Source of the DNA: Planctomycetota bacterium
GTDB lineage: Bacteria; Planctomycetota; Phycisphaerae; Phycisphaerales; UBA1924
Length of the DNA stretch: 64,000 bases
Assembly (NCBI GenBank): GCA_013285505.1
Contig: CP053450.1
Location: forward strand, 3,580,796-3,644,795
Reading direction: 5' to 3'
Of the stretch, positions 13,866 through 54,365 are shown in pieces. The notes beneath the pieces were generated by a model. That model searched no databases and was not told the origin of the DNA. It saw nothing but the letters and a program-made list of their open reading frames with translations. Made by a program: the position numbers and the translations under genes. Positions within the stretch are counted from its first letter, which is position 1, and every line of letters starts with the position of its first letter.

Positions 13866-14690
13866 TCAGCCGCACCCGGAGGTCCACAGATTCAGGAACG
13901 CCAGCACGTCCTGGGTGTTGACGGTCTGGTCCGCGTTGATATCCGCCGAGGCGTCGCCGGCGTTCCACGCGTTGAGGAAGGCCAGGACGTCCTGCGTGTT
14001 GACGAACGTGTCGTCGTTGAAGTCGGCGAGGCAGCCCTCCACCGAGAGCAGCGTGAACGTGAACGTGCCCAGCGGCGGCGTGCCCTCGAACGGGTACTCA
14101 TCGGACAGGTCGAAGATCGGCTCCGGCGGCTGGGTGTCCTGGTTGAACGAGCTGTAGCTCACCCCGCTGTCGGTGCCCGAGTCGTAGGGCGCGAGGCTCA
14201 CGACGACCTCGTCGAGCCAGACCCCGGCGACGGCCAGAGGCAGCGAATCGACGCCGACAAACCAGTCCGGGCTCGGCGCGATCATCGAGACGATCGAGGC
14301 CAGCGGGTGCGAGGCGCTCACCTGGAAGGTCATGCTCGCCGATCCGGGCGAGTTGCCGATGCCGGGGCCGGAGAGGAGGTACTCCGCCTCGCCGGACCCG
14401 ATCGCGCTGTTGACCTCGCCGGTCAGGGCCGACTTGGAGCCCGTCTCGGCCATGCTCTCGATGCCCGGGGAGGCCAGCTCACCCATCTCCCAGAAGTGGA
14501 TGCCGGCGTGGTGCGTGCCGCCGATCAGGCCGGAGAAGTGCGGGTTGTTCGGGAAGTCGAGCGGGTGGTTCTGGGCGCTCCACGTCGCGTCGAAATCGAC
14601 GCGGTAGGTGGCGACCGAATCGCCCGCGAGGGCCGAGCCCGAGGCTCCGAGGATGGCGGCGAGGGCGAGCAGCGAGTATCGGTGGCGCAT
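13866..14690 (-). CDS. Secreted spondin-domain protein with GC-type dockerin
   Basis: A signal peptide ([19 protein letters not shown]) is followed by a spondin-N-like domain: YRVDFDATWSAQNHP, GTHHAGIHFWEMGELAS and GIESMAETGS. The C-terminus holds two dockerin-like repeats, DFNDDTFVNTQDVLAFLNAW and DINADQTVNTQDVLAFLNLW, ending SGCG. The Asp/Asn spacing in each repeat is that of a calcium loop. The protein is 274 residues. It is probably exported and held at the cell surface through the C-terminal tag. AAGGAAC precedes the ATG. Confidence 0.85.
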   Translation of the reverse strand: MRHRYSLLALAAILGASGSALAGDSVATYRVDFDATWSAQNHPLDFPNNPHFSGLIGGTHHAGIHFWEMGELASPGIESMAETGSKSALTGEVNSAIGSGEAEYLLSGPGIGNSPGSASMTFQVSASHPLASIVSMIAPSPDWFVGVDSLPLAVAGVWLDEVVVSLAPYDSGTDSGVSYSSFNQDTQPPEPIFDLSDEYPFEGTPPLGTFTFTLLSVEGCLADFNDDTFVNTQDVLAFLNAWNAGDASADINADQTVNTQDVLAFLNLWTSGCG

Positions 14691-14840: not shown

Positions 14841-16524
14841 TCAGCCGCAGCCGAGCACCCACTCGTTCAGAAAGAGCAGCACATCGCGGGTGTCGTTCGC
14901 CCCGTCGCCGTTGAGATCGGCCCGGGGGTCGCCCGCGTTCCAGCCGTTGAGAAAGGCCAGCACATCGCGGGTGTTCGAGGCCCCGTCCCCGTCGAAATCG
15001 GCGAGACAGCCGTTGAGGAGCGTGACGATCTGGTTGGCCGCGAGAGGGCCATCGAACCGCTCGGTGCGGGACTCGACGCTGCCCATCCGGGGCCAGACCA
15101 CCTCGACCCAGTCCACCTCGGCCGCCGAGCCGAGACCAAAGTGCCCGGAGGTCCTCGGTCGAGCAGGTCGAGGACCCGCTGACGATCTCGCGGTGGCGGG
15201 TCACGCCGCCGGCCCGGACGCGAACCACCGCGCCCAGCCCGTCGGAGTTCACCAGCCGCCCGTCGCCGACCAGATCGATCGCGATCCAGGCCCCCGCCTC
15301 CGCTGAGACATTCTCGAGCAGGTTGGTGCGGGTGTCGTCTCCGGCCGGGTTGATCACGACCAGATCGAGCAGGCCGTCGTTGTCGAAGTCGATCCGCACG
15401 GCGTTCTTGCTGTCCTGGGCCGCGTCGTTGAGGGCGTCCGAGACATCCTCGAACGCGCCGCCGCCGAGATTGCGGTAGAGCAGGTTGTGGTTGGGCCCGC
15501 TCCCGAGGCTGCCGGCGTGGAAGAGGTCGAGCAGGCCGTCGTTGTCGGCGTCAAGCCAGCTGACCCCCCATGCCCAGTAGCCCGTCACCGGGAAGACCCG
15601 AGCGAGCGTGCCGCCGAGATTCTCGTAGTAGACACCCTCGGCGCCGTTGGAGATGGCCAGATCGAAATCGCCGTCGTTGTCGTAATCGCCGGCGCTGATG
15701 CCCATCGGTGCAGGGCCGAGGAACGTGTACCCGGCGTCGCCCGCGATCTCGTCAAACATCCGTCCGCCGGCACCGTCGGGGCTGTTGTGCAGCAGCGTCG
15801 GCCCGATGCCCGTCGTCAGCAGCACGACGTCGCTCCACCCGTCGAGGTCGAGATCGGTCACGGTCATCGAATAGCAGTGCCCGGGCACGCCGAGAGCCGC
15901 GAGCCGGTCGTTGGCCAGCACGAATGTCCCGTCGCCCTCGTTCTGGAACAGGTTGAGCGCGCGCGCACTCTCGCCGGTGTAGGCGACGAGCAGGTCGGCG
16001 TCGCCATCAAGGTCGAAGTCGAGCCACGCCGCGGCCTCGGGATCGCCGCCGGTCGTGCGCACGCCGGAGGCAACGCTGACATCGGTGAACGCCCCGCCCC
16101 CGTCGTTGCGGTAGAGTAGGCCGGCGGAGGTGTCGCCCGCCAACCAGCCGAGCACGAACAGATCGTGATCGCCGTCGTTGTCGTAATCGGCGACGACCGT
16201 GCCGCGGCCGATGCGGCTCTGCCCGTCGCCGAGGTCGAGCCCGCTCCCGGCGGTGACATCCTCGAACGTGCGCTCGCCGGGTCGGGACACATCCTCGATG
16301 TTGTGGTAGAGCCGGTGGGTGCCGTTGGAGCGGCCGGCGATGTAGAGGTCCATCCAGCCGTCGCCATCGAAGTCGATCACCGCGGGCCCGCCGCGGAGCG
16401 AGCCGAGATCGACCTCGCCGGAGAAGACGCGGTCGGTGAAGCAGGGGCCGCCGGGGCAGGTCTGGCCGGCGGCCGCGGCGGCGAACACGACGTGCGGGGC
16501 AACTCGCTGGATCCATCGGGACAT
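14841..16524 (-). CDS. Secreted FG-GAP/ASPIC-UnbV protein with GC-type dockerin (one frameshift)
   Basis: After a signal peptide the protein has about six FG-GAP (VCBS) repeats, each with a calcium loop such as DFDGDGWMDLY, DYDNDGDHDLF, DLDLDGWSDVV and DYDNDGDFDLA. These should form an integrin-alpha-like beta-propeller. An ASPIC/UnbV domain follows (GAVVRVRAGGVTRHRE...EVDWVEVVWP). Two dockerin-like repeats close it (DFDGDGASNTRDVLAFLNGW, DLNGDGANDTRDVLLFLNEW, ending GCG). The frame changes near 15145 inside the ASPIC domain, between STEDLR and HFGLGSAAEVDW. The layout resembles CRTAC1-type proteins. Probably surface-exposed; ligand unknown. Confidence 0.82.
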
Positions 16525-21699: not shown

Positions 21700-22187
21700 A
21701 TGCCCGACCGAGACTACGACGCGATCCCCGTCCCCGCCTGCGGCACGCGAACCGATCGCATGACGGCGCTTGCCGATGCGCTGTGGGGGGCGTTTGCGGG
21801 CGCGGGGTATTCGTGGGTGGGCTTTTACACCAAGGAGGCGGGTGCCGAGGAGATGATCCTCGGGCCGCGACGGGACAAGCCGGCGTGCTCGCCGATCGGG
21901 CTGCACGGCATGTGCGGGTATTGCTGGCGTGAGCGCCGGTGCGTGGTCGTGCGTGATGTGCGTGAGATCGGTGAGAGCTATGTCGCGTGCGACCCGCGGG
22001 ACATGGCCGAGGTGGTCGTGCCGCTGCTGGAGGCCGACGGCTCGTGCTGGGGGGTGCTGGATGTGGACTCGTTCGAGGTCGGGGCGTTCGGTGAGGCCGA
22101 CGCGATCGGGCTGCGCGGCTGGTGGAGCGGGCGGGGCTGAGCGAGCCGCTGGGCAACCGGGCGTGGCCGATCTTGGCCGGCGGGTGA
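21700..22187 (+). CDS. GAF-domain protein, free-methionine-(R)-sulfoxide-reductase-like
   Basis: The GAF domain follows the fRMsr pattern: WVGFYTKE, LGPRRDKPAC, GLHGMCG, VVVRDV, YVACDP, EVVVPLL and GVLDVDSF. The Cys residues of KPAC, GMCG and ACD match the three Cys positions of the reductase, which repairs oxidised free methionine. The start at 21700 rests on the TACGGT hexamer and on alignment. The frame as written stops at 22140, ending LRGWWSGRG. A shift near 22113 would give RLVERAGLSEPLGN and a stop at 22187, a more natural helical end; this shift is probable, not certain. Confidence 0.72.
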
Positions 22188-22222
22188 CAGGCGAGCCTCC
22201 GCCGCGACGCGGTGTCGCGCGG

Positions 22223-25210: not shown

Positions 25211-26914
25211 TTACTGCGCCCAGACCGCGGCGAGGTCCTCGGCGAGCCTCGCGCCGGCCTGGTCGGCCAACACGCCCAGCACCTCGTTGATCTCCTCGAT
25301 GTCGGCCCGGTCGTCGATCTCGACGGCTGCGGGCGCGACGGCGAGCACCTCGCCGGTCTCCAGTTCGATCGCGCGGAGGGTGTAGCGGACCGTCGAGTAG
25401 CCCTGCTCGCGTTCGAGGCGGCCGTCGCCCAGGATCGCGATGTCGGCCATGCCGGTCTCGCGGATGAGCTCGATCATTTCGGCCTCGCGGAAGACGAATC
25501 GCGGGTTCTCGGCCAGCGCGCGCTCGCGGAGCGTGACGGCGTCGACCATCCGCAGGCCCAGCCCGCCCGGGCCGAGTCGGTCGAGCATGAGGTCTTCGAG
25601 GCGGCGGGTCTCGAGCAGGCGGTGCTCGGGAGCTCGGGGCTCGTAGTCGGGGGTGACGATGCCGCCCCAGCGGTCGGACCGGCGGCTGCCGAGCGAAGAG
25701 TTGCCCTGCCGGATCTGCTCACCGATGTTGATGAAGACGTTGCTGCCGCCGAGGGTAGCGGTGATGTCGTTACCCGTGCCGCGACCGTCGAGCCCGAGGC
25801 CCGGGCCGTAGCGGTCGAAGAACCAGGGCTGCTTGAGTTCCCACGGGCTGAGTGCGCGGCCGATGAGCATCGCGATGCGGGGCTCGCCGGCGTTCTGGTA
25901 CGCCTGGTTGAGCGCGCGCACGTCGATGTCGTCAAGGGACGTCGTCGATCCGCGCATCCGCCAGTTCGCGGCGCTCCGCATCTGCCCTTCGCCTGAGACC
26001 GCACGCACGACGATGGTGCCGCTGGTCATGTCGAGGCTGTCGAGCTCGAGGCGGTTGGCATCGCCGGCGTCGAGCAGGTCGCTGGTGAGGTCGAAGGCGC
26101 TGCCGATGTAGCGCACACGCAGCTCGGCGATCGAGGTATCCCGCGACTGCTGGCGCTGGCCGACGGAGACCCGCTCGACGCCGGGGGCACGCTCGAGCAA
26201 GTCCACCATGTCGCGCAGGCCCCGCACATCGGCCCCGAGCACGCGGACGGTGTAGGGCATCGCGATGCCGTAGCCGCCGAGGTGCCGCTCGTAGCCGTCG
26301 ACGAAGTCGTTGGCCAGCAGACGGGCGTACCGCTTGATGGCGCGGGCGTCATCGCCGCCCTGCCAGTCGAAGGCGACGGTGCTGATCGTGCGGCCCCGCG
26401 GCACGTCGATCGCCTCGAAAGTCACGCGGTACTTCGCCCCGCCGCGTGCGCCGGGCTGCAGGCGGGCGACCAGGGCGAGCGGCGCGTCGAGCGCCGAGGA
26501 GAGCAGGTCCACGGCGTCACGCTCGCGGTTGAGCATGAGCAGGTTGGCATCGCGCCGGTCCATATCGCTGATCGCGTCGAGGTTGGCGATCTCCACGCCG
26601 CGGCCCTCGAGCAGCGTGCGCTCGAGCTCGCTCTTGAGGATGAATGCGTCGCCCTGGGCGTCCATCGACATCAGCGATGCGCCCACGCCGCGCCCGGCTC
26701 GTTCGGCGGTCGAGACCCCGGCCAGGACCATCACCGTCGGCGTACCGCCCTGTTCGTAGAGCCGCTCCCAGCGCTGAGCGTCGAAGACGTAGCGGTCGTC
26801 GACGCGGATGGGGGCGGCGTCGGGCTTGCGTGTGACCTGCGCGTGAGTGGCGGTGACGGTCATTCCAACCGCGAGGCCGGCGAGCAGTGCGATTGCGGTG
26901 TGCTGTGTACGCAT
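25211..26914 (-). CDS. Exported protein of unknown function, last gene of the Lpo-like operon
   Basis: A signal peptide (AIALLAGLAVGMTVTATHAQ) is followed by 545 residues with no family I can name. Two segments resemble the closing strands of LpoB/CsgG-type domains: RVTFEAIDVPRGRTISTVAF and YTLRAIELETGEVLAVAP. A central region (ERVSVGQRQQSRDTSIAELR, RVRYIGSAFDLTSDLLDA) looks like a secretin-style or FlgT-like alpha/beta unit. No lipobox is seen, so it is probably periplasmic. It follows the YcfL-like gene by 138 bases, with a repeat element between them. GGGAGAAG precedes the ATG. Confidence 0.6.
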   Translation of the reverse strand: MRTQHTAIALLAGLAVGMTVTATHAQVTRKPDAAPIRVDDRYVFDAQRWERLYEQGGTPTVMVLAGVSTAERAGRGVGASLMSMDAQGDAFILKSELERTLLEGRGVEIANLDAISDMDRRDANLLMLNRERDAVDLLSSALDAPLALVARLQPGARGGAKYRVTFEAIDVPRGRTISTVAFDWQGGDDARAIKRYARLLANDFVDGYERHLGGYGIAMPYTVRVLGADVRGLRDMVDLLERAPGVERVSVGQRQQSRDTSIAELRVRYIGSAFDLTSDLLDAGDANRLELDSLDMTSGTIVVRAVSGEGQMRSAANWRMRGSTTSLDDIDVRALNQAYQNAGEPRIAMLIGRALSPWELKQPWFFDRYGPGLGLDGRGTGNDITATLGGSNVFINIGEQIRQGNSSLGSRRSDRWGGIVTPDYEPRAPEHRLLETRRLEDLMLDRLGPGGLGLRMVDAVTLRERALAENPRFVFREAEMIELIRETGMADIAILGDGRLEREQGYSTVRYTLRAIELETGEVLAVAPAAVEIDDRADIEEINEVLGVLADQAGARLAEDLAAVWAQ

Positions 26915-26924
26915 GAGTCTTCTC

Positions 26925-27047
26925 CCGTGGCACCGGCTTCCAGCCGGTGACCGTTGCGCCGCGGAGGCGGCGCGGATGTACTTGAGACGCACGTTTGCGG
27001 AGACAGTTCCAAACCGGAGGCGCACCGGCTGGGAGCCGGTGCCACGG
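26925..27047. repeat. Inverted repeat pair (GTGGCACC type) between two genes of the envelope operon
   Basis: Arms at 26925-26949 and 27023-27047 are 25 bases long and pair with one mismatch. Each arm is itself an imperfect palindrome (CACCGGCT...AGCCGGTG). The right arm lies 5 bases past the YcfL-like stop. It may be a REP-like element, a processing site or a partial terminator. Confidence 0.75.
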
Positions 27048-27052
27048 TGTGG

Positions 27053-27472
27053 CTAGCTCGCCGGGCGCACGGTCAGGCGCCAGTCCTTGGCGGTCGTCGA
27101 GAGCGCGTTGGACTCAAGGAAGACCTGCGTGCGTGCCGGGATGACGACGTACTTCCAGCCGCTCTCACCGACGGGGCGTCCGGCCTCGTCGAACCACTCG
27201 TACTGGTACTGCACGCGCGTGGTGCCGTCCTGGGTGGAGCGGCAGGGTGTCACCACGTGCAGTGGAGTGCTGCCGACGCCGGGGGTGACCGTCGGCTCGG
27301 TAAACGCGATGAGGTTGGCGAGCACGGGCGCGTTGGAGACCTTGGGGTAGGGCTGGGCCGGATCGACCCGGCCGCCGAAGGGGGCGGCGGTGGTGTCGCA
27401 CCCGGTCAGGCTCAGCGCGGCGGTCGCCGTGCCGAGGCTCAGCGCCGTGATCAGGATTCGTGTGGTGTTCAT
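27053..27472 (-). CDS. YcfL-like (DUF1425) lipoprotein
   Basis: A 139-residue lipoprotein: lipobox LSLTGC near residue 22. The pattern RVQYQYEWFDEAGRPV, ESGWKYVVIPARTQVFLE and AKDWRLTVRP is that of YcfL/DUF1425, a small beta-sandwich often encoded beside LpoB. It shares an ATGA overlap with the upstream COG3014-like gene. GGGAGGAGAA precedes the ATG. Its job is unknown even in enterobacteria, but its constant pairing with LpoB and COG3014 suggests one envelope complex. Confidence 0.75.
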   Translation of the reverse strand: MNTTRILITALSLGTATAALSLTGCDTTAAPFGGRVDPAQPYPKVSNAPVLANLIAFTEPTVTPGVGSTPLHVVTPCRSTQDGTTRVQYQYEWFDEAGRPVGESGWKYVVIPARTQVFLESNALSTTAKDWRLTVRPAS

Positions 27473-29191
27473 CGTGCGTTCTCCTCCCGCAGCCCTCCGG
27501 CTGCGCGTGCGGTTTCGGTGGTCGGTCCATCAACGTGCTGCGCGATGAACTCGCGCAGCTGCTCGGTCTCGGGGCGGTAGGGGCTGTGGCGGCGGGCGAA
27601 GAGCCGGGAGAACCCGGTCGTGCCGGGCAGCGGCGTGAAGAGCGAGTGCCCGCCCTCGAAGATGTGGCCGGTGACCAGCCGCGTGTCGTCCGGCGGGAAC
27701 AGCCGGATCCCCTCGGCCCGGTAGAGCTCGCGGATCTCGCCGAGGGTGTCGGTGATCGGGTCGGTGGCGCTCCGGGTCCGCAGCCCCGCGCGCTCGGCGT
27801 CATAGGCGACTTCCTGCGTGGGGTACCGCGCGTCCCGCCCGCCGAGGATCCAGGGCAGCGAGGGCGCGGGAAGCCCGCCGGTGGCGTCGTTGGCGTACTC
27901 GATCGTGTCGGCCGCGGCCCACTCGACGCGTGAGGTCGGCAGCCGCACATAGCGGAACAGCGTCTCGCCGGGCACGCGCCCGAGCCCGAGACCGTGGAGC
28001 GTCATGAGGCTTTCGGGGCGGTTGTCGACCTGCACGCGGACCGGCCCGGTGTGGCCGCCGAGCGTGAAGGGCACGACGTAGACACGCTGGGGCAGCAGTT
28101 CGTTGTGCCGCGTGTCGGCGCGAGAGTTGGACTGGGCGATCGCGCCGATCGCCATCATCCCCGCGCCCGCAGCCAGCCTGGCGATGTCGTCGTCGCCCTC
28201 GGTCCCGCCGGTCGAGGCCAGCACCAGCCCGCCGAGCAGCATCGCGTCGCCGAAACCCTTCTTGAATCGGCGGATGCTCTCGCGGCTCTGCCAGCGGGCG
28301 TCGAGGGCCATCGTGTTGACATCGCAGGCCGGCGGGAACCGCTTGGTGCCCGAGCCGAAAGTCACCGAGACCGCGGCGTTGTCCGACCGGGTCCGGGGCG
28401 AATACCGCACGGCCACGCCGCCGTCGCCCACGGCCTCGCGACGGGGGCCGAAGCCGTAGTCGACCACCAGGATTGTGTCGTAGTCGCCGGCCAGCAACGT
28501 GTCGCGGACGGTCGCGAGCGCGGCGTTGGCCGCGACGGGCGCGGCCGAGTTCTTCCTCGGCCTCTTCGCGGCGGTGCATCTCGATCGCGGCGATGCCCTT
28601 GAGCAGATAGCCCAGCGCGAAGTCCGACCGTACCGAGCGGTATTCGATCTCTTCGCTTGTCGTGTCGGACTCGCTGTAGTCGCGAAGATGGAAGAGCGCG
28701 TTCTCGGAGGTCGCGCGCAGGTTGCCCCAGTCGCCGCGGCTGGCGTCGGCCAGGCCGATGGCGGTGTAGGCCATCGCCTGCTCGAAGGGCTCGCCCTTCC
28801 AGATCCGCACGCCCTCTTCGTTGACGAAGATCGACTCGGTCGTGCGGTCGGCGTTGAGGCCCTGGGTCCGGAGCGTCTCGAAGACGACCTCGAAATCGCG
28901 GTCGGCGGCGTCGGGCAGGCCGTCGGCCAGCGCCATCATCCCCCGCTTGGTCGCGTTGAGCAGGTCGGTGCGGGTGTTGCTCGGGGTCTGCGTGGCCAGC
29001 AGTTCGCGGGCCCTGCCGAACTCGGCGCGGGCGGCGAACCCGAGCACTCTCGCGTCGGCCTGATAGCCCGCACCGCCGCACCCGACGAGCGGGAGTGTGG
29101 CACCGACGACGCAGACCAGGGCGAGGCGTGTGCGCCGTCTCGTGCCGGCCGGGGCGCGGTGCCTCCGTGATGTGCCGGCGACGCTAATCAA
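27469..29191 (-). CDS. COG3014-like TPR lipoprotein (one frameshift)
   Basis: A lipobox (LPLVGC) is followed by helical TPR-like repeats (FGRARELLATQTPSNT, RGMMALADGLPDAADRDFE, FEQAMAYTAIGLADASRG). The C-terminal half includes DYDTILVVDYGFGPRREA, which matches the conserved core of COG3014 proteins. The frame changes near 28543-28552, between EEAEEELGRAR and ANAALATVRDTL. The start appears to be a TTG at 29191 overlapping the stop of the gene before. The stop overlaps the YcfL-like start by ATGA. The predicted place is the outer membrane or periplasm. Confidence 0.72.
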
Positions 29192-29831
29192 GGACAGACC
29201 CCCACACCTCGCGCGCGACTTCGGTGGTGCCCTGCCAGACGAGCGCCCGGCTCTGCACCTCTTCGACGGCGAAGCTCAGCAGGTAGTACTCCTTGCGGAT
29301 GTCGGCGTCGCGCCCACCGGTGAGCGATCCGGCGCGTGTGGCCGAGGCGATCTGTGCCTCGAGCAGGTGGGTCGGCCAGCTCTCTTGCTGGAACTCGCCA
29401 AACGTCAGCCCGCCGCGCTCGAGCAGCCGCACCTTCTCGGGCGGCAACTGCACGGTGATGTTTTTGCTCCGCAGCAGGTCCTGCATGCCCTCGGCCGCGA
29501 GCACGCGGGAGACGAGCGACCACTGCTCGGCCTCGGGGATACGGTCGGTTGAGAGGTTCTCGACGCGTCGGACGACGAGCCGCGCCTCGGGTGAACCAGC
29601 GTCTCGCGATGTGAGGAACGCGCTGCCGGCGAGTTGGTCGCGGATCGTCAGCACCGCCTGTGTGAGGTCGGCGTCGGCCAGGCGGGTGGTGCGGGGGCCG
29701 GGCGTGCTCGCACAGCCGCCGGCGACGCTCAGCAGGAGCATGGCCGCTGCCGGCAACACCATCGCTCGGCGTGCGGCACGGCGTTCGCGAATCGGTCTCT
29801 GGCTTCGTGGGTTGTGCTGCGATCGGCGCAT
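29184..29831 (-). CDS. Second LpoB-like lipoprotein
   Basis: A 215-residue protein: basic N-terminus, then VLPAAAMLLLSVAGGC with a lipobox Cys. The core (LVVRRVENLSTDRIP, EQWSLVSRVLAAEGMQDLL, KEYYLLSFAVEEVQSRALVWQG) has the layout of PF13036-type LpoB domains: a strand with V..ENxS, a helix, then a pair of long strands ending W. It may be a diverged paralogue of the gene upstream. It overlaps the next gene's start by 8 bases and follows the first LpoB-like gene by 58 bases. Confidence 0.62.
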   Translation of the reverse strand: MRRSQHNPRSQRPIRERRAARRAMVLPAAAMLLLSVAGGCASTPGPRTTRLADADLTQAVLTIRDQLAGSAFLTSRDAGSPEARLVVRRVENLSTDRIPEAEQWSLVSRVLAAEGMQDLLRSKNITVQLPPEKVRLLERGGLTFGEFQQESWPTHLLEAQIASATRAGSLTGGRDADIRKEYYLLSFAVEEVQSRALVWQGTTEVAREVWGSVLD

Positions 29832-29889
29832 GACATCACCTCTTGCGGCTCCGCGCCGGCCGTTCACGACGAACGCCGTGCGCGAGCGG

Positions 29890-30525
29890 TCACCGCTGCT
29901 GGGCGAGATCGAACGCCTCGTTGAAGACGATCTCGCGGTCCTGCAGGTTGGTCATGTTGAACTCGAAGAAGTACCGCCTCGTGTCGCTGCGCTTGGACTC
30001 GAAGAACGCGCCGCGGAGGACGTAGGTGTTCGCCGGGTCGTAGCGGTCGGTCTGGCCGCCGCCGTAGTCGCGCTGCAGCGGGTCGGTCTCGCCGCCGCGA
30101 ACGCGCCGGGCCTCGGCGTCCATCGCCTGCACGCTCTCGACGAACTTCATGTTGGCCGCGGCGATGTCGCTGTTGATGAGCTTGCTGCGGAGGCGGCGCT
30201 GGATCAGCTCGAAATCGCTCCGCGGCGTGTCGGTCTGGTTCTCGATCGCCCCGAGCTCGACGATGACCCGCGTGGGGGCGTTGGCGATGCGGGGGATGTT
30301 CGAGAGCCGACGCGTGAGTGCCTCGGCGACCTGGTCGGAGTATTCGAGCATCGCCGGCATGCTCGCAGCCGTCGAGACCGCGTCGCCCCGCGTGCTCGCG
30401 TAGGGGTTGATCCGCCCGCCGGACTGCCCCACGCTCTCGTTGCGTGTGCACCCGGCGAGTGCCGCGGCCCCGATGAGCGCGGCGGCGGCAAGGGTCGTCG
30501 TTGCGGTGTTCATGGCCCGTCGCAT
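29890..30525 (-). CDS. LpoB-like penicillin-binding protein activator lipoprotein
   Basis: A lipobox (ALAGC) is followed by an LpoB-type domain: RVIVELGAIENQTDTPRSD, FELIQRRLRSKLINS, a YVLRGAFF strand and DTRRYFFEFNMTNLQDREI. In enterobacteria LpoB spans the periplasm and switches on the peptidoglycan synthase PBP1b. Here the protein is 211 residues. AGGAGG lies 7 bases before the first ATG. It is the first gene of a five-gene minus-strand run. The assignment rests on the fold pattern and on neighbours of the COG3014 and YcfL families. Confidence 0.75.
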   Translation of the reverse strand: MRRAMNTATTTLAAAALIGAAALAGCTRNESVGQSGGRINPYASTRGDAVSTAASMPAMLEYSDQVAEALTRRLSNIPRIANAPTRVIVELGAIENQTDTPRSDFELIQRRLRSKLINSDIAAANMKFVESVQAMDAEARRVRGGETDPLQRDYGGGQTDRYDPANTYVLRGAFFESKRSDTRRYFFEFNMTNLQDREIVFNEAFDLAQQR

Positions 30526-30577: not shown

Positions 30578-30740
30578 CCACGGCCCGGACGATTAAGTTC
30601 CGTGACCACTAACTTTGGGCATCCGGACCCCGAGATTTCTCGCAGCGGGAAGGATATTCCAGGTCCATATACCGAACGTTTTCCTATCGACAGGATGGGC
30701 AGTCCGAGTTCACGGGCGCGGGCCTGCCCCCAACGAAACA

Positions 30741-30805: not shown

Positions 30806-32398
30806 TCAGCAGGGGATGTTCCACCGGTTGAGGAAGGCCAGGACGTCCTGGGTGTTGATCACGCCGTCACCGTTGATGTCGGCGGCGGGCAGCCCGGCGT
30901 TCCAGGCGTTGAGGAACGCGAGCACGTCCTGGGTGTTGCGGACGCCGTCCATGTTGAAGTCGCCGAGGCAGGGGCGGCCGCCGTTGATGCAGAAGGCGTG
31001 ATCGGCCTGATGGCAGCTGCGGCTCCCGTCGTCCAAGTTGAAGGAATACGAGTTGAGGCCGTAGATCGCGTCGGTCAGGCCCCAGCAGAAGAGTTCGGGG
31101 TCGTTCGGATCGGCGGGGATTCCGTAGACGCCGAGGATGTAGGTGTTCCCAGCGGTCAAGGCGTAGACGTTCGCGGGGATATTGACGGTGAATTCATACA
31201 GAGGGATGCCGAACGCATCGATGCACTGGAAGACCGGGCGTGCATCGGCCATCGTGACCTGGTACGCACCGAGGAAGGTCCCCAGACCGACACCACAGTC
31301 CTGGTTCCCGTCAGCCGAGCCGTTGTAGAGTTCGATGTAGAACCCGGCAGTATTGCCGAGCAGGGTCGGCGTTCCGGCGCCAACGTTCCAGCCACCGCCC
31401 GTGAACTGGAGCTGGCGCAGGTCTGTGTTTGCGGGTGCGACGAAGTCATCGGCGGCGATGAACGGGTTGTTGTTGTTGGTGAAGTTGCTGAAGTAGCAGT
31501 CGGGAGCGGCGCAGTCGAGTTCGAAGCAATCGGAGCCGACGTTGGTCGTAAATGCCATGTCGGGGCTGCAGCGAATGTAGTCGCCTGTGGTGCGGTCCCA
31601 CGACGTTGCATCGCGGAAGTTCGACATGTCGCTCTGGCACCAGGCGAACAGGCCCGAGCCGTTCGGGTCAACCAGCGTGGCGTAGACCAGCACCATGTAG
31701 ATCTCACCGGGATTGAGCGCGATGGGCGTGTCGAAGTTGGCGGTCATCTCGTAGAAGTCGAGATCGCCGGTGCAGAAGAACGTCGGCGAGACTTCTGAAA
31801 CCGCGTAGGTCTGCCTGCCGGCGAGCGAGGCGTAGGTCCAGCCGCACGTGTCGCCGCTGGCCTGTGTCGACCAGATCTCGACTCCGATCGTCGAGATCTC
31901 GTTGAGTGAACCGGTGCCGCCAAAGATGCCGGCGTAGAACTGCACGTTGCGCAGCGGTTCGCTTCCCGCGCGGAAATCGTCGAACACGAGGTACGGGTTC
32001 GAGGCGTGGTTGTTGTTGCTGAACCAGCCTGATGTGCAGGAGGGGTCCTGGCTGATGAACCGCGTTCCCCCGCCGCCTCCGGCGATGTCACCCTGCTGGA
32101 AGCCGCCGGGGTTGGTGCTCGCCGGCTGGCGCGTGCCGCCGATGATCTCGGGCTGCGAATCCAAGCTGAACAGCACAGAATCGCGCGGATCGGTGCTGAA
32201 AGTCGAGAACTTGCTTTCCGACGGCACACGGTGGAAATCACCCGGTCCGGCCGGCTGCCAACCGGATTGCGGCGCATCCAAGATGTGCTGCTGCGAAAGC
32301 AGAGGCACGGCGTCGGAAACGACCTGCCCGAATGCCGTGGCCGCGGTCGCGGCTGCGGCGGCTGTGGCCCAGAGAGCCCTTCCAAGGAACCTGTTCAT
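30806..32398 (-). CDS. Secreted protein with duplicated domain and GC-type dockerin
   Basis: A signal peptide (ATAAAAATAATAFGQ) is followed by two related modules of about 190 residues. The first contains NPYLVFDDFRAGSEPLRNVQF and the second NPFIAADDFVAPANTDLRQL; both go on with a G.GT...I.IELY-type strand and Cys residues. The C-terminus has two dockerin-like repeats, DFNMDGVRNTQDVLAFLNAW and DINGDGVINTQDVLAFLNRW, ending PC. It is 530 residues, rich in Asn, Cys and aromatic residues. The module family was not recognised; it may bind carbohydrate. GGGAG lies 8 bases before the ATG. Confidence 0.8.
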   Translation of the reverse strand: MNRFLGRALWATAAAAATAATAFGQVVSDAVPLLSQQHILDAPQSGWQPAGPGDFHRVPSESKFSTFSTDPRDSVLFSLDSQPEIIGGTRQPASTNPGGFQQGDIAGGGGGTRFISQDPSCTSGWFSNNNHASNPYLVFDDFRAGSEPLRNVQFYAGIFGGTGSLNEISTIGVEIWSTQASGDTCGWTYASLAGRQTYAVSEVSPTFFCTGDLDFYEMTANFDTPIALNPGEIYMVLVYATLVDPNGSGLFAWCQSDMSNFRDATSWDRTTGDYIRCSPDMAFTTNVGSDCFELDCAAPDCYFSNFTNNNNPFIAADDFVAPANTDLRQLQFTGGGWNVGAGTPTLLGNTAGFYIELYNGSADGNQDCGVGLGTFLGAYQVTMADARPVFQCIDAFGIPLYEFTVNIPANVYALTAGNTYILGVYGIPADPNDPELFCWGLTDAIYGLNSYSFNLDDGSRSCHQADHAFCINGGRPCLGDFNMDGVRNTQDVLAFLNAWNAGLPAADINGDGVINTQDVLAFLNRWNIPC

Positions 32399-32650
32399 CA
32401 CACAATCTCCCAATCATTGGGGTGAGGAAGCCAACAACTCACGCCACACCCCGAGTTCACGAGCCGGATACCTCCACATCTGGCAACCGGAAGAAGCCAT
32501 GGTACCAGAAGCTGGGTAAAGACACGCAGAAATCGCGTGAATTTGCACAGTTTGCGCAACTCAGGTATTGACAAATACTTAGGCGTGCTCGTTCACTGAG
32601 GATTCGGCCAGACTCTGGAACGTGTCGGCGAAGCGACGGGGGTGTTTCCC

Positions 32651-32884: not shown

Positions 32885-33218
32885 TGCACACCTCCTTGTG
32901 GTCGGGCGTGCGTCACTCCCACGAGCTCGCCCGAAATCAGCACACATTTCCGCCCCACGCGGCTGTACCGAGAAGAAGTCTCGGCGGTCGCTGACTGCCC
33001 CACCATTTGCGCCGATTTGCCCCGGTTTGTCAAGCGGGGAAAGACAAGAAAGTCCGTTGTTTGTTAGTGTTAGCGAACATGGTGCGTGCAGATCCCCGCT
33101 GAGAGACTCCCAGGCGGGATACCGGGCAGAGACACTCCGAACGCCACGTCGCGGCGGATTCGATATGGTGTGCGACCCTTGTGGAACAGCGTCGGGGGAC
33201 GCGACCGGAGTTTCATTG

Positions 33219-35241
33219 ATGCACCAGAGATTGATGTGGAGTGCCGCGGCATTGCTCGCCCTCGCGGGCACCAGCCTCGGCGAGGCCGGCCCGATCACGG
33301 CGAGCCGCCAGCCCCGTGGAGACCTTTGAGATCGGCTCGAGCCTGGGCGGCAAGCTGATCACCGGCTGGCGGGTGGGCTCGACCGAGCCGGACGAGCTGG
33401 GCCGCGGGCCGGACGAGCGTCCGGCGCTGCTGATCGTCGCCGGGCTGAACGGCCGGCACGACTTCGGCTCCCGGGTGGCGATCTCGATCGTGGACCGGCT
33501 GGTGACCGATCACCCCGAGCTGCTCGACCGGTACACCGTCTACGTGGTGCCGGATCTCAATCCGGACAACGACGCGATGTTTGACCGCCCGGGCACGCCC
33601 CGCGCCGAGTTTGGGCGCGCGCCGCGGTCGGCCGACGCCGACAGGGACGGGCGGTACGACGAGGACCCGGCGGACGATCTCAACGGCGACGGCGTGATCA
33701 CGATGATGCGGGTGAAGAACCCGGCACCGGGCACGGGGCTGCGGCCGACGCTGGTGCTCGATCCCGACGAGCCGCGGCTGCTGCGGGAGCCCGACGGCGA
33801 CAAGGGCGAGATCGCCGAGTACGCCGTGCTCATCGAGGGCATCGACAACGACGGCGACGGGGCGTTCAACGAGGACGGGATCGCGGGCAGCGCCGGCGGC
33901 GGCGTGGACCTGGACCGAAACTTCCCCTCGCTGTGGCCTGAGTACGCCGACGGCGCCGGCCCGCACGCGCTCTCTGAGCCGGAGACCCGCCGGCTCGTCG
34001 AGTGGATGATGACGCGGGACAACATCATCTGTGCGCTCGCGTATACGCCGGGCGACAACATCCTCAACACGCCCGCTTCGGGCAAGTACGACAAGGACGG
34101 GCGCGAGCCGACCGGCATCGAGGACGGCGATAAGAACACGTACGAGCGCGTGCAGACGCTCTTTAAGGAGACGACGAACCAGACCGGCGCCCCCAAGGGT
34201 GAGTGGGCCGGGTCGTTCACGCAGTTTGCCTATGGCCAGTTCGGGGTGTGGAGCTTCGCGACGCCCGGGTGGGTGCGGCCCGATCTGGTCAAGGAAGCGG
34301 ACGCTGAGGGCGGGGAGAAGGACGAGTCCGCTCCGGCCGACAACGCCCCCAAGGGCGACGGCGGCCTCGACATCGAGGCCGAGCGGAAGGCGCTGCAGGC
34401 GCAGGGCACGCCCGGGTTCATCATCGACTTCATCGTCGCGACCCCCGAGGAGCGTGCGGCGTACATGGCGAGCTTCGAGGACATGTCCGAGGCCGAGCGG
34501 GCGTCGAACATGCAGGCGGTGATGGCGCTGCCCGAGTCGATCCAGCTCCGCGTGCGGGCGCTGATCTCGGGCCAGCCCGATCCCGGTCCGTTTGCCAGCG
34601 GGGGTGGCGGCCGCGAGAGCGTCGGCGGCGAAGGACGCGGCGGGCGGGGCGCACGCGGTGCGGGGGGGGGCGCGGCTGGCGGCAAGTCTTCCGACTCTGA
34701 CGACGCCAAGTGGCTGGAGTACTCCGACGAGCACCTGGACGGGCGCGGGTTTGTCGAGTGGGCCGCGTTCGACCATCCGCAGCTCGGCGAGGTGGAGATC
34801 GGCGGCCTGGTGCCGGGCATCAAGCACGAGCCCCGCGAGAGCGAGTGGGTGCGCGTGGTGGACGAGCAGGCGACGTTCGTGGCGGGCCTGGTCGGCATGC
34901 TGCCCTCGCTGGAGGTGGAAGTGACGGGAGTCGAGCGGATCGCTCCGGGCGTGTGGCGGGTCCGCCTCCGCGGGACGAACTCCGGCACGCTGCCGACGCG
35001 TGCGGCGATCGGGGCCAAGGCCCGACGCCTCGCGCCGATCGTGGTCGACCTCGGCGTCGACGTGGACGACATCGTCACCGGCGACCGGCTCAACAGCTGG
35101 GAGTCGATCGCGGGCAACGGCGGGTACGAGGAGATCGAGTGGGTCGTGCGTGCGCCGGACGGCGCGAGCCTGCCGGTCGAGATCCGCTCGAGCGTCTTCG
35201 GCAACCGCACCCTTTCCGTCGAACTGACGCAGGACAACTGA
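33219..35241 (+). CDS. M14 carboxypeptidase-like secreted protein, probably inactive (one frameshift)
   Basis: Signal peptide LMWSAAALLALAGTSLGEA, then an M14-like fold that aligns well with the next gene. A frame change near 33300-33310 joins the signal peptide to SPVETFEIGSSLGG. Where the next protein has GNVHGNE (zinc HxxE), this one has GLNGRHDFGS. Where that one has QSYHNSGG (zinc His), this has LAYTPGDN. Where that one has FTNEMW (catalytic Glu), this has FATPGW. Calcium-loop inserts (DADRDGRYDEDP, DNDGDGAFNEDG) are shared. A Gly-rich linker near residue 460 separates a C-terminal beta domain. Likely a pseudo-peptidase, perhaps a partner of the next protein. Confidence 0.8.
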
Positions 35242-35253
35242 GGAATGACACCG

Positions 35254-37008
35254 ATGTTCACACGAACTCTCAAAGCAGCGCTCTGTGCCGCTCTCGCCGC
35301 CGCGTCCGTTTCGGCGCCGGCGGTTGCGCAGGAATTCATACCCGCCAAGGTCGATATCGCGTTCAACCGGTATTACACCTACACCGAGTTGGTTGATCAC
35401 ATGCACGCGATCGCCAACGCGTATCCCGAGATCGTCACGCTGGAGCAGATCGGCTTGAGCGGGCTTGGCAGACCGCTCTATGTCGCGACGGTCAACGCGC
35501 CCAACACGGGCCCGGCCGGGTCGAAGCCCGCGATGTGGATCGACGGCAACGTCCACGGCAACGAGATTCAGGCCGCCGAGGTGGTGCTCTACTCGCTCTG
35601 GTATCTCACCCGGGCCTACGGCCACAACGAGGACCTGACCGAGCTGCTCGACAACTACTCGTTCTACTTCATGGTGAGCCAGAACCCCGACGGGCGTGAC
35701 TATTGGTTCGAGGAGGCCAACACGCCCAACTCGTCGCGCTCCAACCAGCGCCCCGTGGACAACGACCGGGACGGGTTCTTCGACGAGGACCCGCCGGACG
35801 ACCTCGACGGCGACGGCTCGATCACCACGATGTGGAAGCCAGACCCCGACGGCCGCTGGAAGCGCGACGAGAAGGACCCGCGGGTCTTCTACCGCGTTGG
35901 GCAGGACGAGGTCGGCGAGTGGACGAGGCTCGGCTCGGAGGGCATCGACAACGACGGCGACGGGCGGACCAACGAGGACGGCCCCGGCGGCGACGACATG
36001 AACCGCAACTGGCCCAGCGACTGGAAGCCCAACTACGTCCAGTACGGCGCCGGCGAGTTCCCGCTCTCCAACCCCGAGACGCGGGCGATCGCCGAGTTCA
36101 TCCTCGCGCGGCCCAACATCGCGGCCGGGCAGAGCTACCACAATTCCGGCGGCATGATCCTCCGCGGCCCCGGCGCCAACTACGCCGAGAGCCTCTACCC
36201 GCGCGAGGACATCCGTGTGTACGACGAGATCGGCACCGTCGCCGAGGACATCCTCCCGTATTACAACTACTGGGTGATCTACAAGGACCTGTACACCGTG
36301 CACGGCGGGTTCGTGAACTGGCTGGCCGAGGGTCTCGGCGTGTTCAGCTTCACCAACGAGATGTGGGCCGCGTCCAAGTACTTCCAGCGCGACATCTCCC
36401 GCCCGAGCGAAGAGCAGATGTGGCTCTTCCGCGACCGGCTGCAGTTCGGGCAGGACTTCAAGGACTACACCGAGATCGACCACCCCGAGCACGGCAAGGT
36501 GCTCGTCGGCGGGCTCAACAAGTGGGCCAGCCGCAACACCCCCACCTTCGCGCTCGAGGAGGAGTGCCACCGCAACTTCGCGTTCACGATGTTCCACGCC
36601 GACCAGATGCCGGTCGTCGAGTGGGGCCCGATCGAGGCCGAGCAGGTGGGCGACGGCGACCTGTGGATGGTGACCGTCGAGGTCAAGAACACCAAGCTCA
36701 TGCCGACTCGGTCGGGCATCCAGGCCAACAACAACATCGGCCGCAACGACATCCTCACCTGCGAGCCCTCGGAGGGGCGTGTGGCGATGTCGGGGTCGAT
36801 CCGCGAGCGCACGGACAAGCAGCTCAACGAAACCAGGTTCGAGCCCGGGCGTGTGCAGCTGCGGCGGGGCGTGCCGAGCAAGGGCAGCGTGCTGCACCGG
36901 TTCCTGATCGAAGGGCCGCGGGGCGGGGCGGTGACCCTGCGGTACGAATCCGAGAAGGCCAAAGACCTCGAGACGACGTTCACACTCGAGCCGCGCAGCC
37001 GGGACTGA
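35254..37008 (+). CDS. Secreted M14-family zinc carboxypeptidase
   Basis: Signal peptide (LKAALCAALAAASVSAPAVA), then RYYTYTELVDHMHAIA and the M14 motifs: GNVHGNE (zinc His and Glu), NPDGRDYW, QSYHNSGG (zinc His) and SFTNEMW (catalytic Glu). It should remove C-terminal residues from peptides outside the cytoplasm. Two calcium-loop inserts (DNDRDGFFDEDPPDDLDGDG, DNDGDGRTNEDG) interrupt the fold. The C-terminal 130 residues form a beta domain (VVEWGPIEAEQVGDGDLW). The ATG at 35254 was chosen over 35245 because GAGGA lies at proper spacing only from the former. It follows the paralogue at once, so they are co-transcribed. Confidence 0.88.
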   Translation: MFTRTLKAALCAALAAASVSAPAVAQEFIPAKVDIAFNRYYTYTELVDHMHAIANAYPEIVTLEQIGLSGLGRPLYVATVNAPNTGPAGSKPAMWIDGNVHGNEIQAAEVVLYSLWYLTRAYGHNEDLTELLDNYSFYFMVSQNPDGRDYWFEEANTPNSSRSNQRPVDNDRDGFFDEDPPDDLDGDGSITTMWKPDPDGRWKRDEKDPRVFYRVGQDEVGEWTRLGSEGIDNDGDGRTNEDGPGGDDMNRNWPSDWKPNYVQYGAGEFPLSNPETRAIAEFILARPNIAAGQSYHNSGGMILRGPGANYAESLYPREDIRVYDEIGTVAEDILPYYNYWVIYKDLYTVHGGFVNWLAEGLGVFSFTNEMWAASKYFQRDISRPSEEQMWLFRDRLQFGQDFKDYTEIDHPEHGKVLVGGLNKWASRNTPTFALEEECHRNFAFTMFHADQMPVVEWGPIEAEQVGDGDLWMVTVEVKNTKLMPTRSGIQANNNIGRNDILTCEPSEGRVAMSGSIRERTDKQLNETRFEPGRVQLRRGVPSKGSVLHRFLIEGPRGGAVTLRYESEKAKDLETTFTLEPRSRD

Positions 37009-41846: not shown

Positions 41847-43571
41847 ATGCCGACCACACGCCGCACATCAACTCTCGCCCGCGCGCTGGTCGCCGCCGGC
41901 GGCCTCTCGGTCGCAGCACCTCAGACCTCGCTCGCCCAGGCCGACAACGATGTGCTCTTCAGCCTCGACGGCATGCGGCTTCGGTGCGAGCTCTTCGGCG
42001 AGTGCTTCCCCGACCAGTCGCGCAACAGCGCCGACAACCCGCTCCCCCCCGGCACGCCCCAGACCATCCTGCCCAGCAGCGGCTACCGCTACACGCTCGA
42101 CGGCACCGTCCGCTCGTCCGGCCTCATCGGCGGCATCATCCCCGACGGCTCGAGCCTCGGCGAGATGATGGACATCCTGCAGGCCGGGCAGTCGCGCATG
42201 CTCACCGGCTACATGCGCAACCCCACCGGCGGCTTGCCCGACGCCAAGAACACCGTCTGGCTGCAGACCTTCGCCGACGAGATCATCGGCATCGAACTGG
42301 CCATCACCCTCGAGACCTCCATCTCCGACCAGGGCGTCGGGCTCTTCGAGATCCGCGACATCGACATCGGCCTGGGCATCCTGTTCGGCGAGATCCGTGT
42401 CGAGAACGGCACGTGCCTGATCGAGACGTGGGAGCCCTCTCCCCGCCAGCAGACCGAGTGGCACTTCGACAGCGCCCTGACCAGCGTCCCCAACTCCGGG
42501 CCGGCGCGGCTCGACTATCTCGACAACCCCGCCTTCGGCACCGTCCTCGGCGGCATCGGTTCCGAGGACACACCAAACCCCAACGCCCCCACCGGCGTCA
42601 CCGAGGCGCAGTCCTCCTTCACCACCACCGCCTCGCTCGGCATCCCCGGCCCCGGCGGTGAAGACGCCGACGTCTACGTCACAAGCCCGGCACGCAACCT
42701 CGCCGACCCGGACCCCGACCTCTACCGCGGCATCGGGCTCGCGCTGTTCCCGGCCAGCAAACCCGCATTCCCCGGCGGCTTCCTCGGCCAGTGGACGCTC
42801 ATCTACGACCTCTACATCCCGTCAGAAAGCTGGAACACCGAGTGGCCCCTCGCCCTCGTCCACGGGTCGCACAACAACGACGGCCGCGCCGACTGCCTCA
42901 TCCGCAACCCCGGCAACGGCAACGGTGCGATCGGCTACATCGCCGAGCCCGGCGACTATCTCGAATCCAACGCCATCGGCCCCGACCGCTGGATGCGCCT
43001 CGCCCTGGTCAGCAACTTCATGCAGACCAACGAGACCGCGATCTACGTTGACGGCCAGCTCGTCGGCGTGACCAACTCCGACTGGCACTACAACTCCGTC
43101 GATCCCACCGCGCCCGTGTTCGGCGACGGCGAGCCCGTCGAGAGCGCCGACTGGCTGGCCTGGGGCGAGTTCCCCTCGCCGTGGGCGTTCAGCTCGGGCA
43201 ACTACCCCGACTCGATCGGCCCCTCGCCGCTGGCCTCCACGCTCGGGCTCTTCTGCGACCTCGGCGACGCCGACCTCGGCCCCGGAGGCCGCTCGGAGGT
43301 CGCCTACCTCGCCAATCTCTACTTCGCCGACGACATGCTCACCCCCGCCGAGATCGCCGCCCTCGGCGGTGCCGACGCCGATGGCATCGTCTTCACCACC
43401 GCCCCCTGCCCGCCCGATTTCAACGGCGAGGGCAACGTCAACACCCAGGACTTCATCGCCTTCCTCAACGAGTGGGTCGCCCAGGGCTCCCGCGCCGACT
43501 GGAACGGCGACGGCACCGTCAACACCCAGGACTTTATCGCGTTTCTGAACGAGTGGGTCGCGGGTTGCTGA
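41847..43571 (+). CDS. Secreted LamG-like protein with GC-type dockerin
   Basis: Signal peptide (LARALVAAGGLSVAAPQTSLA), then a 250-residue N-terminal region (VLFSLDGMRLRCELFGECF). A concanavalin/LamG-like domain follows: WTLIYDLYIPSESWNTEWP, PDRWMRLALVSNFMQ, ETAIYVDGQLVGV and VAYLANLYFADDMLTPAEI. The C-terminus has DFNGEGNVNTQDFIAFLNEW and DWNGDGTVNTQDFIAFLNEW, ending AGC. It is 574 residues. LamG folds often bind sugars. AAGGAG lies 7 bases before the ATG, and TACCAT at about 41785 may be the -10, giving a normal leader. Confidence 0.83.
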   Translation: MPTTRRTSTLARALVAAGGLSVAAPQTSLAQADNDVLFSLDGMRLRCELFGECFPDQSRNSADNPLPPGTPQTILPSSGYRYTLDGTVRSSGLIGGIIPDGSSLGEMMDILQAGQSRMLTGYMRNPTGGLPDAKNTVWLQTFADEIIGIELAITLETSISDQGVGLFEIRDIDIGLGILFGEIRVENGTCLIETWEPSPRQQTEWHFDSALTSVPNSGPARLDYLDNPAFGTVLGGIGSEDTPNPNAPTGVTEAQSSFTTTASLGIPGPGGEDADVYVTSPARNLADPDPDLYRGIGLALFPASKPAFPGGFLGQWTLIYDLYIPSESWNTEWPLALVHGSHNNDGRADCLIRNPGNGNGAIGYIAEPGDYLESNAIGPDRWMRLALVSNFMQTNETAIYVDGQLVGVTNSDWHYNSVDPTAPVFGDGEPVESADWLAWGEFPSPWAFSSGNYPDSIGPSPLASTLGLFCDLGDADLGPGGRSEVAYLANLYFADDMLTPAEIAALGGADADGIVFTTAPCPPDFNGEGNVNTQDFIAFLNEWVAQGSRADWNGDGTVNTQDFIAFLNEWVAGC

Positions 43572-43804: not shown

Positions 43805-45043
43805 GTGAAGAAAGTAAACTCGTGGCTTGCATTGTCCCTTATGGCCGCCGCGTCGGCCCCGGCGTGTGCGCAGCTCTTTGGCCCGGGTGACCCGATCCTG
43901 GCGGTCGATCCAGACACCGGCGTGGAGAGCGATTACCCCGACGGCGAGGCCCCGGTCTTCGCGCTGGACCAGGACTCCTTCACCAAGTACTTGAACTTCG
44001 GTCAGGAGGGCACCGGGCTGATCGTCACTCCCGCCTACGGCGCCTCGATCATCCGCAGCTTCAACATGACCACGGCCAACGACGCGCCCGAGCGCGACCC
44101 GGCTACGTGGGAGATCTACGGCACCAACGACCCCATCACCAGCGCCGACAACAGCGGCGGCGACGAGGAGAGCTGGACGCTCATCGCTTCCGGCGACGCC
44201 GACCTTCCCGAGGACCGCTTCCTCTGGGGGCCGTTCTACGACTTCGCCAACGGCACGGCGTACACCTCCTACAAGATCGTGTTCCCAACCGTGCGCGATC
44301 TCTCCGCCAACTCGATGCAGATCGGCGACCTCTCGCTGTTCACAGGCACCGGCGGCGGGGGCGATCAGATCCTCGACGATGTTGACGCGGTCATCGCGGT
44401 CGGCACCTTCGGCTCGCTCAGCCGCTACCCCGGCGCCGAGGGTCCCACCAACGCCATCGACGGCGACAACTTCAACAAATACCTCAACTTCGGACGCGAG
44501 AACTCCGGCTTTATCGTCAGCCGCGCAGACGACACCGCCGTCGTGGTCGGACAGCTCACGATGGTCACCGCAAACGACTTCTCCGAGCGCGACCCCACCA
44601 CGTGGGAGCTCTACGGCACCAACGACGCGATCGTCAGCGAGGACAACAGCACCGGCGAGGCCGAGAACTGGACCCTCGTCGACTCCGGCTCGATCGATCT
44701 TCCCGAAGACCGCAACACCGCCGGCCCGACCGTCCCGGTCAACAACTCCACCGCCTACACCTCCTACAAACTGCTCATCCCGAGCATCAAGGTCTCCGGC
44801 GGCTTCCCCGGCGACGCGGTGCAGTACTCCGAGGTCATCTTCGAGGAAGGCAGCAACGACTGCTACGCCGACTGCAACGGCGACACGTTCGTGGACACAC
44901 GCGACTTCCTGTGCTTCCTCAACAAGTGGACCGAGGCCACCGGCTCGGGCATCTACGACCCCGAGGCCGACTGCAACGACGACAACACCAACAACACCCA
45001 GGACGTCATCTGCTTCCTGAACCTCTGGACCGGCGGCTGCTGA
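43805..45043 (+). CDS. Secreted discoidin-like protein with GC-type dockerin
   Basis: Signal peptide (SWLALSLMAAASAPACAQ), then two repeats of about 150 residues. Each has SFTKYLNFG or NFNKYLNFG, followed by ATWEIYGTNDPI or TTWELYGTNDAI and AYTSYKI or AYTSYKL, as in F5/8-type (discoidin) sugar-binding folds. The C-terminus has two Cys-rich dockerin-like repeats (DCNGDTFVDTRDFLCFLNKW, DCNDDNTNNTQDVICFLNLW) ending GGC. It is 412 residues. A GTG start is used, with TTGGAGG 5 bases before it. The 233-base gap upstream holds no clear gene. Confidence 0.82.
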   Translation: MKKVNSWLALSLMAAASAPACAQLFGPGDPILAVDPDTGVESDYPDGEAPVFALDQDSFTKYLNFGQEGTGLIVTPAYGASIIRSFNMTTANDAPERDPATWEIYGTNDPITSADNSGGDEESWTLIASGDADLPEDRFLWGPFYDFANGTAYTSYKIVFPTVRDLSANSMQIGDLSLFTGTGGGGDQILDDVDAVIAVGTFGSLSRYPGAEGPTNAIDGDNFNKYLNFGRENSGFIVSRADDTAVVVGQLTMVTANDFSERDPTTWELYGTNDAIVSEDNSTGEAENWTLVDSGSIDLPEDRNTAGPTVPVNNSTAYTSYKLLIPSIKVSGGFPGDAVQYSEVIFEEGSNDCYADCNGDTFVDTRDFLCFLNKWTEATGSGIYDPEADCNDDNTNNTQDVICFLNLWTGGC

Positions 45044-54079: not shown

Positions 54080-54365
54080 GTCGCTCCCGGTCGCTCCCGC
54101 GCTCGTGTTGGCATCCCGTGACCTGCTGGTCTTTCGCACACGCCGCTGCGCGCGCAGAGGCCACCGCCGCCCGCGCTGGCGTGTGCTACGTCTTTCGACC
54201 GACCGGCCGCTTTCGCACCAACCACCGCCGCACACTCTCACCCGGCCACCGGGTGCATCCCTGGCGGCCCGCCCGTGGCACCCGCAGCCCCTTCCCGGCT
54301 GCCTGAAATCATGGGCAGAAAACCCCAAACAAAGACTGGATATCATCCCGTCGAACAAAATGCCC

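Follow-up and report, generated by a model that had tools for sequence, protein, structure and literature searches.

The stretch of DNA analysed here, 64,000 nt of a Planctomycetota bacterium genome (assembly GCA_013285505.1, contig CP053450.1, forward strand, 3,580,796-3,644,795; the window, in whose coordinates all positions are given), holds five minus-strand genes read in the same direction. They encode two LpoB-like proteins (LpoB1 and LpoB2), a COG3014-like protein, a YcfL-like protein and an exported protein referred to as gene 5 (Table 1). The source genome is a single contig of 4.12 Mb, and the G+C content of the window is 68.6%. The unit LpoB1-LpoB2-COG3014-like-YcfL, in some cases joined by gene 5, is found repeatedly across Phycisphaerae, with flanking genes that vary. 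In E. coli, LpoB (PF13036) activates the penicillin-binding protein (PBP) PBP1b, and ycfL adjoins lpoB. Because the planctomycete set is widely conserved in bacteria that apparently have no class A PBP, its proteins probably do something other than class A PBP activation.

All five genes announced in a preliminary description of the window proved real. That description had also reported an ATGA overlap between the COG3014-like and YcfL genes (found at 27472-27469) and had proposed that the five are co-transcribed. For gene 5, which a 138-base gap with two palindromes inside parts from YcfL, only synteny suggests that it belongs to the same transcript. The palindromes are of the type CACCGGCT-N-CCAGCCGGTG, with four matches counted on both strands against 0.01 expected. 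Judged by eye, each of genes 1-4 has a lipobox, and gene 5 has a signal peptide that lacks one. Across the alignments, a lipobox follows the hydrophobic stretch in 40/47 rows of LpoB1, 37/47 of LpoB2, 48/75 of the COG3014-like protein and 46/52 of YcfL, and in only 2/23 rows of gene 5; the lipid cysteine is invariant in the alignments of LpoB1, LpoB2 and the COG3014-like protein. All five genes are under purifying selection. Rough Nei-Gojobori estimates of dN/dS against the related locus L080 are 0.218 and 0.159 for the N- and C-terminal parts of the COG3014-like gene and 0.144-0.197 for the other operon genes, and those against a second locus, L081, are higher (0.22-0.40).

Table 1 Features of the operon, in window coordinates.
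Feature	Position	Strand	Description and basis
LpoB1	29890-30525	-	211-residue lipoprotein, PF13036 over cut-off; cysteine 26 invariant (33 rows)
LpoB2	29184-29831	-	215-residue lipoprotein; diverged LpoB paralogue by profile match to LpoB1 and tree grouping
COG3014-like, N-terminal part (TPR region), first frame	28540-29191	-	frame plot, tblastn, model of the L080 orthologue
COG3014-like, C-terminal part, other frame	27469-28540 (ORF 28497-27469)	-	frameshift near 28540; frame plot, tblastn
YcfL-like lipoprotein, DUF1425	27053-27472	-	profile score over cut-off
Gene 5, exported, 567 residues, two predicted TolB-N/CsgG/LpoB-like domains	25211-26914	-	AlphaFold2 model, structure comparisons
REP-like palindromes (two) in the YcfL-gene 5 gap	26931-26949, 27023-27041		motif count
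Leader block, conserved in the genus, GTTAGTGGT..GGAACTT	30594-30620	-	window, L080, L081, L136
ORF, open reading frame.

Two LpoB copies in a recurrent gene set

LpoB1 belongs to PF13036 (25.4 bits; cut-off 22.3), in agreement with its first naming, although a six-frame genome search at E 0.001 missed it. The same protein scores far under the NCBIfam equivalog for the PBP activator LpoB (TIGR02722; 20 bits against a cut-off of 110.55), and a search of its profile against solved structures returned LpoB only at E 0.15, ranked under two dynein light chain matches. LpoB2 falls below the PF13036 cut-off (11.8 bits against 22.3), and its profile had no match among solved structures. Aligned profile to profile with LpoB1 over 166 columns (probability 99, E 2.4e-19, identity 14%), LpoB2 is, by sequence, a diverged paralogue of LpoB1; the earlier label of a second LpoB-like gene thus holds as homology to LpoB1 and not as a PF13036 match. 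A branch with support 100/99 in a 117-protein LpoB tree sets apart all 47 second copies, together with two displaced copies; this single supported group of second copies indicates that the duplication is old and that both copies have been retained. The linker, counted from the lipid cysteine up to the first conserved motif, is long in LpoB1 (median 34 residues) and short in LpoB2 (median 8; 33 rows for each), so the two proteins are unlikely to perform the same task at equal distance. YcfL matches DUF1425 (PF07233; 46.9 bits, cut-off 28.3), so this identification also stands. A homology between YcfL and LpoB that had appeared in early iterated profiles was discarded: the overlap dropped to 0 once the first 25 query residues were cut, and the apparent link is therefore put down to signal peptides.

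We scanned named genomes with a 20-row COG3014-like alignment and kept the best 80 loci, of which 79 are under planctomycete names, mostly Phycisphaerae. The remaining one, L148, is labelled 'Cyanobacteria bacterium'; both of its LpoB copies group with those of the Phycisphaerales locus L150, and the record is therefore probably mislabelled. Profile totals in the 80 loci were 78 for the COG3014-like protein, 52 for YcfL, 118-122 for the LpoB family and 24 for gene 5. The LpoB pair precedes the COG3014-like gene in 46/80 loci, and the commonest orders are LpoB-LpoB-COG3014-YcfL (17), LpoB-LpoB-COG3014 (14) and LpoB-LpoB-COG3014-YcfL-gene 5 (10), counts that are lowered by short contigs and missed small genes (LpoB2 of L080, for example, is readable yet uncalled). 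Within four places on either side, no flanking cluster occurs in more than 5/80 loci, so the gene set stands alone. In a second collection of 101 genomes, comprising the source genome and 100 relatives (G001-G100, three of the same genus), gene 5 was found in 12, near the COG3014-like gene in 10 and elsewhere in two (G065 and G075).

A different arrangement was seen in 20 loci picked for strong PF13036 matches (type A). Here a COG3014-like gene is present in 17/20 and stands ahead of a single LpoB in 15/20, and YcfL was recognised in 7/20; in the LpoB tree the 16 type A copies cluster together (99/93), next to the first copies. A COG3014 match of the window type was found in 0/34 relatives with strong PF13036 matches and in 22/23 with weak ones.

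Class A PBPs in the source genome and its relatives

The operon had at first been taken for a PBP1b-type activator set, in which LpoB1 and LpoB2 would dock on a class A PBP at its UB2H domain and so activate the glycosyltransferase, as in E. coli. The PF13036 match of LpoB1 fits this idea, as does the nearby YcfL, which has its parallel in E. coli, but the missed equivalog and the genome searches contradict it. The glycosyltransferase domain GT51 (PF00912) was found neither in the source genome nor in 98/100 relatives, the three same-genus genomes included; the same search was positive in 10/14 control genomes. The two carriers among the 101 genomes (G065 and G070, with loci L031-L033) also have a COG3014-like gene, and 41 of the 43 genomes with a COG3014-like match are without GT51. 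In a phylum-wide sample of 294 planctomycete genomes, GT51 was found in 42 and PF13036 in 174, and the two are not associated (PF13036 in 26/42 genomes with GT51 and 148/252 without; Fisher p 0.74). Among the 154 cleaner genomes (at least 90% completeness, at most 5% contamination) the counts were 17 for GT51 and 88 for PF13036. These PF13036 figures are low estimates, since the source genome scores negative in the six-frame search though its LpoB1 protein passes the cut-off.

Excerpts of PMC4632607 report that LpoB binds the UB2H domain of PBP1B. UB2H had no match in the source genome. Elsewhere it was matched in 61/101 genomes at E 0.001 and in 22/101 over the cut-off, mostly within long open frames that we infer to be Mfd-like proteins. 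With none in the source genome, and with 60 of the 61 UB2H-positive genomes lacking GT51 (G065 has both, on separate contigs), UB2H was rejected as a docking site, as a class A PBP was rejected as the target after the GT51 searches of the 101 and 294 genomes. An activator set of the PBP1b type is thus highly improbable here. The accompanying remark that no PBP gene is adjacent was right for the neighbourhood and understated the case, since a target of the E. coli type was not found anywhere in the genome.

SEDS proteins, in turn, occur in 101/101 genomes, and one of two transpeptidase matches in the source genome ends 114 bases before a SEDS match. According to excerpts of PMC8406291, a paper with no mention of Lpo, some planctomycetes are without class A PBPs and keep SEDS proteins with class B PBPs. 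PF13036 was also matched in a control genome, Bacteroides ihuae, which together with the matches reported here shows the domain family to be wider.

The COG3014-like gene and predicted folds

The reading frame of the COG3014-like gene is interrupted: a first part extends from 29191 to about 28540, and the rest continues in another frame to 27469. A frame plot places the switch of the G+C-rich codon position near 28,540. The orthologues in the same-genus genomes G001 and G003 are single frames, and as tblastn queries they hit the N- and C-terminal parts in different frames. The C-terminal part is matched in 43/101 genomes, the source included, where most listed frames have 540-860 residues. Neither part has a Pfam or NCBIfam match over cut-off, and the name COG3014 is putative; tblastn of plasmids with one COG3014-like protein gave no match.

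Other genes of this assembly are interrupted as well. murA, which the preliminary description had placed in the window, is present, though across two frames (52764-54358, minus strand): its C-terminal half (PF00275 positions 220-417) lies in the ORF 53396-52764, and N-terminal MurA-like residues are visible by eye in a frame that overlaps it. flgI is in two pieces in the source genome, and dus has a partial profile match (185-284 of 311). Given the split murA and the two pieces of flgI, the frameshift in the COG3014-like gene is, on sequence grounds, probably an assembly indel, with a recent real mutation as the less likely alternative. A programmed frameshift was dropped as an explanation, as the G001 and G003 orthologues are single frames and murA is split too. 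Were the gene truly broken in the source species, the operon would be decaying, and the frameshift does split it in the one assembly examined. Both halves and the other four genes nevertheless keep dN/dS at 0.14-0.22 against L080, and the state of murA and flgI points to assembly indels; completeness (86%; the three genomes of the same genus reach 94%, 84% and 92%) adds little information. We regard decay as improbable. Separately, tblastn with same-genus proteins shifts frame at 33004-33316 and 22122-22191, so further frameshifts are likely in the window.

We then compared predicted structures. For the COG3014-like protein we used a model of its L080 orthologue (550 residues, 48-row alignment; pLDDT 88, pTM 0.89), in which residues 25-219 resemble TPR arrays (best Z 12.8, root-mean-square deviation (RMSD) 2.3 over 144 residues). 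Foldseek rows for this model include NlpI, with none below E 0.001, and the C-terminal half is covered as a domain by none of the listed structure matches. Profile searches of solved structures with the COG3014-like protein and with gene 5 gave weak, seemingly unrelated matches only. For gene 5, the AlphaFold2 model (pLDDT 73, pTM 0.44) predicts two TolB-N/CsgG/LpoB-like domains at the level of fold, which lends support to an early guess of LpoB/CsgG-like strands in this protein. The first domain is close to the TolB N domain (Z 10.7, RMSD 3.0, 117 residues) and to LpoB (Z 8.2, RMSD 3.6, 112 residues), and the last to PelC (Z 11.2, RMSD 4.0, 144 residues) and CsgG (Z 10.6, RMSD 4.6, 135 residues). 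The LPHT ring chain 8z5n_0 (Z 10.6, RMSD 3.3, 148 residues) is the best Foldseek match (E 1.3e-4; LpoB, E 7.1e-4). Residues 219-566 match FlgT (3w1e) at Z 11.2, but with an RMSD of 22.6 over 188 residues, and LptE, GNA1162 and CinA-like proteins also match gene 5 at Z 8-9.

Because this fold group includes PelC, CsgG and FlgT, two kinds of ring stay in play. The likeness of the last gene 5 domain to PelC and CsgG, and the many LpoB-type domains within one operon, would suit a PelC- or CsgG-like ring in the periplasm or outer membrane that exports a polymer or protein. However, TolB, LptE, FlgT and GNA1162 share the fold group, most operon-bearing genomes are without gene 5, and no export or polymer gene recurs as a neighbour, the top flanking cluster reaching 5/80 loci; we consider such an exporter unlikely. 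An outer ring of the flagellar motor, resembling the Vibrio H ring (FlgT, FlgO, FlgP), would account for the FlgT and LPHT ring matches, and FlgI is found in 101/101 genomes. FlgI is not discriminating, as it also occurs in genomes without a COG3014-like or PF13036 match, and no recurrent flanking cluster was recognised as flagellar, which leaves a flagellar ring a distant alternative. In many of the 101 genomes a further FlgI match, partial and covering some 220 profile positions, accompanies FlgI itself and lies in a frame of roughly 600-1000 residues.

A proposed envelope complex and its known counterparts

Our best explanation, offered tentatively, is that the operon encodes a self-contained envelope lipoprotein complex with a client other than a class A PBP, since none was found. 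From the genes we infer the complex itself, its place in the envelope, its client and its stress control. LpoB1, LpoB2, the TPR protein and YcfL would come together in the periplasm, most of them tethered to the outer membrane, with the TPR (COG3014-like) protein as a scaffold. The longer linker of LpoB1 would let it extend inward, and the short one of LpoB2 would keep it close to the membrane. In some species the exported gene 5 product would add two more domains of the LpoB/TolB-N/CsgG type. The likeliest use of such a complex would be to regulate or anchor envelope machinery, and SEDS/class B PBP synthases are the first candidate client by analogy, as LpoB proteins of known function act on a synthase.

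In part of the clade the complex may be under the control of an extracytoplasmic function (ECF) sigma factor. ECF-sigma promoters have the shape GGAAC-N14-18-CGTCTA. Of 64 regions upstream of the operon (63 loci plus the window), 8 carry this two-part element, all of them in relatives; it was found at none of 278 control genes of the same loci and nowhere on the reverse strand, where shuffles give an expectation of 0.05. With a looser form the counts are 14/64 regions, 5/278 controls and 4/64 for the reverse strand, the expectation from shuffles being 2.5. The leader block at 30594-30620, shared by the window, L080, L081 and L136, has GGAACTT and not CGTCTA.

Several observations weigh against the proposed complex. 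Gene 5 is absent from most genomes, and its sequence profile has no clear match to that of LpoB1 (probability 17). The TPR matches, at Z below about 13, may reflect a common helical-repeat arrangement. An Asp follows the lipid cysteine of YcfL in the window and in 10/46 rows; by the E. coli sorting rule, Asp at this position means inner-membrane retention, so YcfL may sit in the inner membrane. The ECF pattern was picked after a first look and the 8 loci include close relatives, which makes its p-value too good, and the region upstream of the operon in the window is without the element. Beyond the presence of SEDS proteins and class B PBPs, no link to either was found.

A more specific version of the proposal, which we put forward as doubtful, is that in planctomycetes without class A PBPs the duplicated LpoB proteins, mounted on a TPR lipoprotein together with YcfL and in some species gene 5, regulate the SEDS/class B PBP synthases from the outer membrane as part of an ECF-sigma envelope response, and that the LpoB family is older and broader than PBP1b control. 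If this is true, the action of E. coli LpoB on PBP1b would be one specialised case, and with a SEDS synthase as client the outer membrane would control the sole type of peptidoglycan polymerase that seems to be present in these bacteria. The label 'PBP activator' enters LpoB annotation through family names, and we caution against a literal reading in planctomycetes. That the LpoB family and its usual neighbours are kept in a lineage apparently without class A PBPs makes the original role of the COG3014-YcfL-LpoB set a testable question.

Two further groups of genes lie in the window. An exported 535-residue protein (30806-32413, minus strand) has a C-terminal dockerin-type match (PF00404, 23.9 bits), and related C-termini were found by blast at 13872-14177, 14847-15008, 43398-43568 and 44849-45040. 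A tandem pair of zinc carboxypeptidase genes (PF00246) of the same family occupies 33241-37008 on the plus strand.

Compared with known systems, the predicted folds of the two gene 5 domains are shared with the group of PelC, CsgG, the TolB N domain and FlgT, and gene 5 differs in its combination of domains, its weak sequence match to LpoB1 and the lipobox in 2/23 rows. The COG3014-like protein resembles NlpI-type TPR lipoproteins in the TPR array predicted for its N-terminal region, and differs from them by its extra C-terminal half outside the listed structure matches. A COG3014-YcfL-LpoB trio occurs in gammaproteobacteria, and we found no paper on it in the library searched. The same kinds of gene are found here, with the COG3014-like gene followed by a single LpoB in 15 of the 20 type A loci and YcfL recognised in seven; the window type differs in that the LpoB gene is duplicated, the pair usually comes first and gene 5 may follow, and membership of its third gene in COG3014 is putative. 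With E. coli LpoB itself the operon shares PF13036 and a lipobox in its first gene and a DUF1425 gene within the operon. It differs from that system in the missed equivalog and in having no class A PBP found, and it adds a second LpoB paralogue, a TPR lipoprotein and gene 5.

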